The notes under the pieces were generated by a model that was not told where the DNA came from, did no database searches, and saw only the letters and a program-made list of their open reading frames with translations. A DNA stretch of 64,000 nucleotides, taken from an uncultured Eggerthellaceae bacterium (GTDB lineage: Bacteria; Actinomycetota; Coriobacteriia; Coriobacteriales; Eggerthellaceae). Below are positions 30,984 to 45,514 of this stretch, one piece after another (position 1 is the first letter of the stretch; each line of letters begins with the position of its first letter). The DNA lies in contig CAIFEB010000001.1 in the NCBI GenBank assembly GCA_903789375.1, positions 89,312 to 153,311 of the forward strand. The letters are read 5' to 3'. The translations under genes and the position numbers were made by a program.

Positions 30984-31012
30984 TTGACAGCAAACATATG
31001 TTCGGTAATAAT
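30984..31012 (+). promoter_or_regulatory. recA promoter with LexA (SOS) box in the spacer
   Basis: -35 TTGACA (30984-30989) is perfect and the -10 is AATAAT (31007-31012), 17 bases apart. Between them CAAACATATGTTCG (30991-31004) matches the Gram-positive SOS consensus CGAAC-N4-GTTCG with one mismatch. LexA bound here would occlude the promoter until DNA damage. Confidence 0.85.
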
Positions 31013-40712: not shown

Positions 40713-41363
40713 CTACAGCCGACGAAAAACCGCCACGACCTTGCCTGCGATGTGGCAATCCCGCGTGATAATGGGCTCCATCGTATGGTTCTCAGGCTGC
40801 AGGCGAATATGGTCCTTTTCCTTGTAGAACGTCTTGACCGTTGCCCCGTCTCCGATGATGGCCACAACAATGTCCCCGTTGTTGGCAACGGGCTGCTGCT
40901 TCACCACGACGTAATCACCGTCTTCGATGCCGGCCTCAATCATGGACTCGCCGCGCACGGCCAGCATGAACGAGGGATCGTCGCCCACGATATCGGTGGG
41001 AAGCGACATTGTGTCCGTGATGTTCTGCTCCGCTAGAATCGGCTGTCCAGCGGCCACGTTGCCGACGAGCGGCACGTTGACGATCTTGCTGAAGCTGGGA
41101 AGGACCGCTTCGTCCTTTTGGGCTTGAGGCTCGCTTCCATCCAGCTGATAGGTCAAAGCAATCGAGCGCGATTTCAGCGGATCGTGCGTGATGTATCCCT
41201 TTTTCTCAAGCGCTTTCAGATGCACGTGAACCGTCGAGGGGGATGACAGGTTGAGCGCCGTGCAGATCTCCCTGACTGTGGGGCCGTACCCCTTCTCGCG
41301 AATGCAGTCTTCAATGCACTTCAGTACTGCGCTCTGTCGTTTCGTGAGCTTCTCGGTCGCCAT
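40713..41363 (-). CDS. lexA: LexA repressor
   Basis: SOS repressor that self-cleaves when RecA filaments form. The 216-residue protein has the winged-helix domain ([20 protein letters not shown]), the cleavage site A105-G106 (GNVAAGQP) and the catalytic dyad S140 (RGESMIEAG) and K177 (GATVKTF). ATG at 41363 follows GGGAGGA on the minus strand; the longer open frame to 41414 reads through promoter DNA. It is autoregulated through SOS boxes in the shared divergent promoter region with the gene at 41474. Confidence 0.97.
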
Positions 41364-41386: not shown

Positions 41387-41461
41387 GAACATTTGTACGA
41401 CTTTTTGTTGACAAGAACCTTTGTTCGCCTTATTATACACACGAACAAAGGTTCTATGCAA
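41387..41461. promoter_or_regulatory. Divergent lexA / SOS-gene promoter region with LexA boxes
   Basis: Two perfect GAAC-N4-GTTC boxes lie at 41415-41426 and 41443-41454, and a weaker one (GAACATTTGTAC) at 41387-41398. The rightward promoter has -35 TTGACA (41408-41413), a 17-base spacer and -10 TATTAT (41431-41436); box 1 fills its spacer and box 2 sits at its expected start of transcription. The leftward lexA promoter has -35 TTGCAT (complement of 41456-41461) and -10 TATAAT (complement of 41432-41437), with box 2 in its spacer; the weak box falls in the lexA leader. Both genes should be LexA-repressed. Confidence 0.9.
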
Positions 41462-41473
41462 GGGGTGACCACA

Positions 41474-41932
41474 ATGATTTACCGCACCAATCAACATTAT
41501 GTTCAGGGCTCCAACGCGGTCGACATGTCTGCCGAAATCGCTCAGCACCAGCGCGAATGCGGAACAATCATCGATTGGTCGGACATCGAGCAACGTCGCA
41601 ATGGGTCAGCGCAGCATACCGCTCGACATGCTGCGAACTCCGATGGTCGCGTCAAGACCGGTAGATTCAACAACGGTATGCACGGCACCTACCGTGTTTC
41701 GCGCGCTGAAGAATCCAACGCGTCGGCAGCGTCGATATCAGAACGCGCCAACGACACGCTATCGTTCCGCGAGCACGTGCGTCGGTTCGCAGATTCAAGC
41801 GACATGATCTGCAGCCTTCGCTACGAAGACGTTCGCGGCATCAGCCTCGGCCCCTCATCAAAACGCGACGTCTCTCTGTTTTCAGTGGTCAGCATCGCTA
41901 TTGCCGTTGTCTCCATCGTCGTTGGCGCGTAA
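41474..41932 (+). CDS. SOS-regulated small membrane protein, candidate damage-inducible division inhibitor
   Basis: A 152-residue protein of no family I recognise. The first ~130 residues are polar, rich in Ser, Arg, Asn and Ala (DMSAEIAQHQRECGTIIDWS, SLRYEDVRGISLGPSSKRD), and the last ~20 form a C-terminal membrane helix (VSLFSVVSIAIAVVSIVVGA), giving a tail-anchored layout. ATG 41474 is preceded by AAGGGG; ATG 41456 in frame is possible. It is divergent from lexA and its promoter contains two LexA boxes. In Bacillus (YneA) and actinobacteria (DivS, ChiZ) small SOS-induced membrane proteins next to lexA block division. Those have N-terminal anchors, often with LysM, and show no visible similarity here, so the role is inference. 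Confidence 0.75.
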   Translation: MIYRTNQHYVQGSNAVDMSAEIAQHQRECGTIIDWSDIEQRRNGSAQHTARHAANSDGRVKTGRFNNGMHGTYRVSRAEESNASAASISERANDTLSFREHVRRFADSSDMICSLRYEDVRGISLGPSSKRDVSLFSVVSIAIAVVSIVVGA

Positions 41933-42118: not shown

Positions 42119-42571
42119 ATGCGTTGTCCCTCATGTGGCTACACCGAGTCCAAAGTAGTCGATTCTCGTCCGTCTGAAGACGGCACAGCCATCCGTAGAA
42201 GGCGCGAATGCCTCTCATGCGGTACGCGTTTCACCACGTACGAGCGTTTGGGTGATTCGCCGCTTATCGTCGTCAAGGCAGATGGTTCGTCGGAAGCCTT
42301 CGATCGCACAAAATTAATGCGCGGTCTGCTGATCGCATGCGCCAAACGACCAATCTCACCTGAGCAAATCGATGCCATCGTAGACGGTATCGAGTCTGAC
42401 CTGAGAAGCAACGGCGATAACCGGGTGTCCTCTAAAGAGCTTGGGAACATGGTCATGGCGCGTCTCGCGAAGCTCGACGACGTTGCATATATCCGCTTCG
42501 CATCTGTCTACAAGGATTTCAAGAACGTCCAAGAATTCGAACGAGCCCTGGAGGCCATCCGTCATGACTGA
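42119..42571 (+). CDS. nrdR: Transcriptional repressor NrdR
   Basis: Zinc-ribbon/ATP-cone regulator of ribonucleotide reductase genes. The 150-residue protein starts MRCPSCGYTESKVVDSR, with zinc ligands C3, C6, C31 and C34 (CLSCGTRF), the RRRRECLSCG motif and the ATP cone (LIVVKADGSSEAFDRTKLMR). ATG 42119 with CAGGGG is preferred over the longer open frame. It overlaps dut by eight bases, pairing dNTP-pool control with dUTP removal. A TATATT at 42066-42071 may be its -10. Confidence 0.96.
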   Translation: MRCPSCGYTESKVVDSRPSEDGTAIRRRRECLSCGTRFTTYERLGDSPLIVVKADGSSEAFDRTKLMRGLLIACAKRPISPEQIDAIVDGIESDLRSNGDNRVSSKELGNMVMARLAKLDDVAYIRFASVYKDFKNVQEFERALEAIRHD

Positions 42572-45352: not shown

Positions 45353-45514
45353 CGCACATACGCCTGCGAGTTTGATCGTTTGTGCGTATGTGAGCATTTC
45401 ACGCAGCTCGCATACGCTGGAGTCACTGGAATTTGCGGCTCCAAAGCGATACCGCCGTGGTGACCCGCATTGCGGTTTGATTATAGAACAGTTGTTCGAG
45501 TGGAAGTTGAAACA

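Follow-up and report, generated by a model that had tools for sequence, protein, structure and literature searches.

A tail-anchored small protein divergent from lexA in Eggerthellaceae: a likely LysM-less descendant of YneA/ChiZ-type SOS division inhibitors

Small SOS-induced proteins that block cell division differ in how much of the molecule lies outside the membrane. The transmembrane (TM) helix of YneA binds TM7 of FtsW and its LysM domain is needed for the division block; in AlphaFold 3 models, which are not of high confidence, the TM helices of ChiZ, SosA, and SidA dock on TM7 as well (PMC13396833). SosA needs its extracellular C-terminal part for inhibition (PMC6851548). ChiZ and DivS both suppress division and are induced in the SOS response; the LysM of ChiZ is reported to be dispensable, and DivS reduces Z-rings on overexpression (PMC3989709). 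SidA, from Caulobacter, is a 29-aa FtsW inhibitor (PMC4211646). Thus, the described systems disagree on the active part, with a LysM that is essential in YneA, a LysM reportedly dispensable in ChiZ, and a helix alone in SidA. Our literature search found no SOS division inhibitor of Coriobacteriia, and nothing was found for Eggerthella lenta combined with LexA and SOS.

Here, we analyze the lexA locus in a 64,000-nucleotide stretch of DNA from an uncultured bacterium of the Eggerthellaceae, a family of gut bacteria (hereafter, the window). Judged from its sequence and surroundings, the protein encoded divergently from lexA is most likely a LexA-controlled, tail-anchored SOS division checkpoint.

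The lexA intergenic region

A genome search found a single lexA, which forms a divergent pair with a 152-aa open reading frame (ORF), referred to here as the small gene. The locus, together with the recA promoter in the same window, comprises the following features:

40713–41363, minus strand: lexA, the SOS repressor, 216 aa (NCBIfam TIGR00498, E = 1.2e-67)
41387–41398: degenerate third LexA-like site GAACATTTGTAC, one mismatch, between the lexA -10 element and the lexA start codon (read from the sequence)
41408–41436, plus strand: small-gene promoter, TTGACA (41408–41413), 17 bp, TATTAT (41431–41436)
41415–41426: LexA box 1, GAACCTTTGTTC, perfect, inside the spacer of the small-gene promoter
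41432–41461, minus strand: lexA promoter, TTGCAT (41461–41456), 18 bp, TATAAT (41437–41432)
41443–41454: LexA box 2, GAACAAAGGTTC, perfect, inside the spacer of the lexA promoter and ~20–31 bp 5′ of the small-gene start codon
41474–41932, plus strand: small-gene ORF, 152 aa, ATG start, tail-anchored, proposed LysM-less SOS division inhibitor (101 positional orthologues; pN/pS 0.12–0.61 in relatives)
42119–42571, plus strand: nrdR, the next gene, a conserved neighbor that marks the locus (tblastn synteny)
30984–31003, plus strand: recA promoter, -35 TTGACA (at 30984) and LexA-like box AAACATATGTTC (30992–31003)

An earlier note on this DNA had described two perfect boxes, one in each of two back-to-back promoters, and both were confirmed, in spacers of 17 and 18 bp. 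The two boxes are mutual inverted repeats (i.e., reverse complements), and the -10 elements of the two promoters overlap (41431–41437), giving one common -10 region. The recA promoter, ~9.7 kb away, has the same box-in-spacer arrangement. Degenerate LexA-like sites similar to that at 41387–41398 are also visible in most relatives' sequences. Another perfect box, GAACAGTTGTTC, is found at 45486–45497, ~29 bp 5′ of the ATG of an ORF for a UbiA-like membrane protein; it lies outside any obvious promoter spacer and may be a chance occurrence.

The number of boxes carries no weight by itself. The window contains three GAAC-N4-GTTC sites against 1.16 expected, a count reached by 10 of 100 shuffles and not significant, and box number alone is no evidence in the genome either, because its 34 sites compare with 39 for a reversed control pattern and show no enrichment. 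Since the bare count is within chance at both scales, the case rests on the position of the boxes and on their conservation.

Conservation and architecture of the small gene

A direct search of 60 relatives with the 152-aa protein returned, besides the protein itself, one weak, irrelevant match. Homologues were therefore located by synteny. A LexA probe matched in 131 of 140 genomes from the family, and the analysis covered 115 distinct lexA loci. The divergent slot beside lexA holds an ORF of 23–188 aa (median 104) in 101 of these loci; the others comprise 12 without an ORF, one apparently frameshifted (L131), and one at a contig edge (L055). The apparent frameshift of L131 (genome G009) lies near the start, with GTSALKP...ATIIPFP readable in another frame, and the copy is apparently a pseudogene or an assembly error. 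Genes of this kind diverge too quickly to be picked up by sequence search and have to be located through their position beside lexA; others have probably been missed elsewhere.

The promoter architecture is conserved along with the gene. Of the 101 family loci carrying the small gene, 84 have a box spacing of exactly 28 bp, against one of the 12 lacking it, related genomes not being independent observations. The box adjoining the small gene and its -35 TTGACA are 92–100% conserved among family loci, with 92–99% for the TTGACA in the 100 anchored loci, where the GAAC/GTTC arms of box 2 are invariant by construction, the loci having been anchored on them. The distance from box to start codon is near-constant among the 101 positional orthologues. 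Thus, the tail-anchored small protein divergent from lexA, with LexA boxes in its promoter, is borne out by the locus and its orthologues. The earlier note had named an absence of homologues beside lexA in relatives as a refuting result, and the presence of the gene in 101 of 115 loci shows that this refutation did not occur. The gene does not always lie next to lexA, however; 12 loci do without it, and it is thus dispensable. In three loci that have lost it (L101, L103, and L104), nrdR lies only ~125 bp from the lexA start and two boxes persist between them, so that nrdR itself may now be under SOS control there.

In 19 close pairs of small-gene ORFs, pN/pS ranges from 0.12 to 0.61, indicating purifying selection. 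Together with the 101 positional orthologues, the near-constant start-to-box distance, and the conserved C-terminal helix, this contradicts the reading of the small gene as a spurious intergenic ORF, which the failure of direct search in 60 relatives might have suggested; that reading was rejected and we give it practically no credence. A role as a partner or regulator of nrdR or of nucleotide metabolism, merely sharing the SOS promoter, was also considered, given that nrdR (and dut) follow downstream in the gene order. The small gene nevertheless stays beside lexA in 20 loci where nrdR was not found within 1.3 kb, and this reading was likewise rejected as very improbable.

The protein itself contains three features, listed here with their residues:

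41480–41521, plus strand: N-terminal conserved motif region, residues 3–16, YRTNQHYVQGSNAV; family form Y.V.G[TS][SA]AL (alignment; common to LysM-bearing relatives)
41750–41821, plus strand: predicted amphipathic helix, residues 93–116 (AlphaFold2, moderate confidence)
41861–41926, plus strand: C-terminal TM helix, residues 130–151 (AlphaFold2 pLDDT 86–97; hydropathy)

No Pfam or NCBIfam family matched the 152-aa protein, Pfam found no LysM in it, and both hydropathy and AlphaFold2 give a small protein with a single TM helix that closes the C-terminus, in agreement with the earlier description of a 152-residue protein with a C-terminal membrane helix and no known family. In each of the 101 ORFs, the most hydrophobic 17-residue stretch sits at the extreme C-terminus, followed by 0–6 residues; these ORFs had been chosen partly for hydrophobicity, not for helix position. 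Lysines or arginines precede the helix in 95 of 101 proteins and hardly any charged residue follows, from which we predict an N-in, tail-anchored topology. Among full-length forms, the best conserved stretch is G-[TS]-[SA]-A-L; the strict pattern Y-x-V-x-G-[TS]-[SA]-A-L is found in 78 of 101 orthologues, followed by an [IV]I-x-F segment, and reads YVQGSNAV in the window protein. A hidden fold in the N-terminal part was considered and rejected, as the AlphaFold2 model (24 sequences) has low confidence in the first half and a pTM of 0.26.

LysM-bearing relatives and minimal forms

In sister families, the same slot encodes a larger protein. Among the matches listed, the slot between lexA and nrdR encodes the N-terminal motif, a TM, and a LysM in 30 of 30 loci of family f10 and in nearly all loci of f4. 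The motif versions in these families are GNLAL, GTSALK, and GTAAL, with [VL]IEGG, followed by the TM and then the LysM; two f2 loci have a TM and a LysM-like C-terminus. Pfam LysM was detected in five of six sister-family proteins tested (E from 3e-5 to 1e-10). Three LysM relatives tested against the NCBIfam YneA equivalog model, NF010723, gave E-values of 3e-14 to 2e-11, under the curated cut-off (best score 52.6 bits, cut-off 60), and the window protein did not match this model. The N-terminal profiles of Eggerthellaceae and of the LysM-bearing relatives align with an hhalign probability of 90.6 (E = 1.3e-6) over 20 columns only; eight column shuffles reached no more than 0.25, and a reversed profile 2.1.

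The lexA–LysM protein–nrdR order extends to other actinobacteria (e.g., L332, L333, L340, and L346). In L346 (G294, elsewhere in the phylum), the cytoplasmic part of the LysM protein contains SGANALAY, which may be this N-terminal motif in a lineage outside the order. At L233, elsewhere in the class, the slot holds a TM and LysM protein without the motif. A motif common with mycobacterial ChiZ was sought by eye, and the comparison was not convincing.

Families f3, f5, f6, f8, and f9 have LysM-less forms at most loci. On a quick LexA+NrdR tree, the LysM-less families fall together with a support of 91 on a branch that is not starred, and LysM requires three changes. Within f4, otherwise with LysM, one locus (L228, G237) has, on its own, a LysM-less tail-anchored form, a probable independent loss. 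The same slot and the shared N-terminal motif point to common descent of the window protein with LysM-bearing members of the YneA/ChiZ type. The simplest reading is that an ancestor of this type lost its LysM, most likely so because the sister-family slot encodes the same motif and TM followed by a LysM and scores on the YneA model; the direction, loss rather than gain, is read from the distribution. The earlier note had taken the small protein for a functional analogue with a different architecture and suggested that it could be the missing SulA-type function of Coriobacteriia, and on both counts the sister families speak otherwise. With LysM-bearing versions present in them, the class does not lack this function, and the window protein, tail-anchored and without LysM, fits best as a descendant of a known lineage, not as an analogue of separate origin.

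Reduction goes further in Adlercreutzia, where a membrane peptide of 23 residues, e.g., MARYEFPIAFALSTIASFLIFFA, is all that the slot encodes; its pN/pS is 0.27. The 23-aa form occurs in eight genomes of genus g6, including A. caecimuris, A. hattorii, A. equolifaciens, and A. muris, and its ORF lies behind the two boxes, which keep their 28-bp spacing, and has a strong ribosome-binding site. These ORFs (L049, L051, L059, L067, L084, L085, L086, and L088) lie ~110 bp from the lexA start and are short enough for gene callers to miss. Genus g17 has forms of 33–34 aa, and G033 an intermediate form of 55 aa without the N-terminal motif. The short peptides are closer to the helices of longer relatives than composition-shuffled peptides are, with 0–3 of 200 shuffles scoring as well in five of six cases tested and 10 of 200 in the sixth. 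By parsimony on the LexA+NrdR tree, the TM-only forms have two origins; a single origin is compatible with the starred branches.

It is somewhat short of an even bet that Eggerthellaceae stripped the protein stepwise, LysM first and then the cytoplasmic part, leaving the 23-residue helix of Adlercreutzia as the whole checkpoint. If so, a helix alone would suffice against the divisome, in contrast to the case of B. subtilis YneA, and domain loss in YneA/ChiZ-type ancestors could give rise to SidA-like inhibitors again and again. A small, hydrophobic, SOS-controlled peptide, above all the 23-aa form, would also fit a TisB-like membrane toxin that reduces membrane potential or growth and favors persistence, in place of a divisome inhibitor; descent from a locus with LysM-bearing YneA-like proteins and the conserved cytoplasmic part of the full-length forms argue against this, and we consider it improbable.

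Proposed function and comparison with known division inhibitors

Taken together, these observations make it likely, at the level of sequence, that the small protein is an SOS-induced cell-division inhibitor descended from lexA-linked YneA/ChiZ-type proteins by loss of the extracytoplasmic LysM. DNA damage would remove LexA, allowing the small protein to be made and to insert N-in through its C-terminal helix. Within the membrane, the helix would dock on FtsW, the septal synthase, or on partners of FtsW, and stall septation until repair is complete, while the cytoplasmic part, which is disordered and bears the G-[TS]-[SA]-A-L motif, may tune activity or turnover. Past the LexA-box promoter, we infer every step, i.e., induction, division arrest, and the FtsW target.

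If the protein is inhibitory, its route must be the helix or the cytoplasmic part because nothing of the window protein lies outside the membrane. The mechanism must also differ from those of YneA and SosA, since the LysM needed in the former and the extracellular part needed in the latter are both absent here. We propose the helix as the effector, as in Caulobacter SidA, because it is the sole part kept in all versions, down to 23 residues. The cytoplasmic motif could instead be the effector, with the helix a mere anchor and an early, cytoplasm-facing divisome component as the target, a logic nearer to DivS, which likewise has no LysM and diminishes the formation of Z-rings (PMC6851548, PMC3989709). 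G-[TS]-[SA]-A-L is indeed the best conserved stretch of full-length forms and common to LysM-bearing relatives. Yet in Adlercreutzia and g17, where the motif is gone, the boxes and the start position persist, as does a helix that is under purifying selection, and the 55-aa form of G033 lacks the motif as well; we regard this alternative as unlikely. The Adlercreutzia form, thus, argues for the helix over the cytoplasmic part as the active element. The natural series at one locus, from a LysM protein through a tail-anchored protein to a 23-aa helix, makes the active part of such inhibitors directly testable.

How does the window protein compare with the known inhibitors? SulA is a soluble cytosolic FtsZ-binding protein, whereas the window protein has a membrane helix and no Pfam family. 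SidA (Caulobacter crescentus), an SOS-induced inner-membrane protein, matches the Adlercreutzia form in size and layout, although nothing indicates that the two share an origin; the window protein is five times as long, and the TM-only size of ~30 aa is matched by the Adlercreutzia form only. SosA (Staphylococcus aureus) is likewise a LysM-less small SOS protein with one TM, divergent from lexA, but has an essential extracellular C-terminal part (PMC6851548) that is absent here. DivS (Corynebacterium glutamicum), compared by description rather than by sequence, is similarly LysM-less, SOS-induced, beside lexA, and with one TM (PMC6851548, PMC3989709), but its C-terminus is predicted to be extracellular. 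ChiZ (Mycobacterium, Rv2719c) is actinobacterial, lies between lexA and nrdR (the order in L332 and L333), and has a disordered cytoplasmic part followed by one TM; it differs in ending with a LysM and in showing no evident counterpart of the Coriobacteriales N-terminal motif. YneA (Bacillus subtilis, NF010723), on whose model the LysM relatives at the small-gene slot score, is, like the window protein, LexA-controlled, beside and divergent from lexA, and small, with one TM helix. That helix is at the N-terminus in YneA and at the C-terminus in the window protein, which has a long cytoplasmic part and neither LysM nor any extracytoplasmic domain. In summary, the window protein lacks the LysM of the YneA/ChiZ type and shares its position beside lexA, divergent orientation, LexA boxes in the promoter, and single TM.
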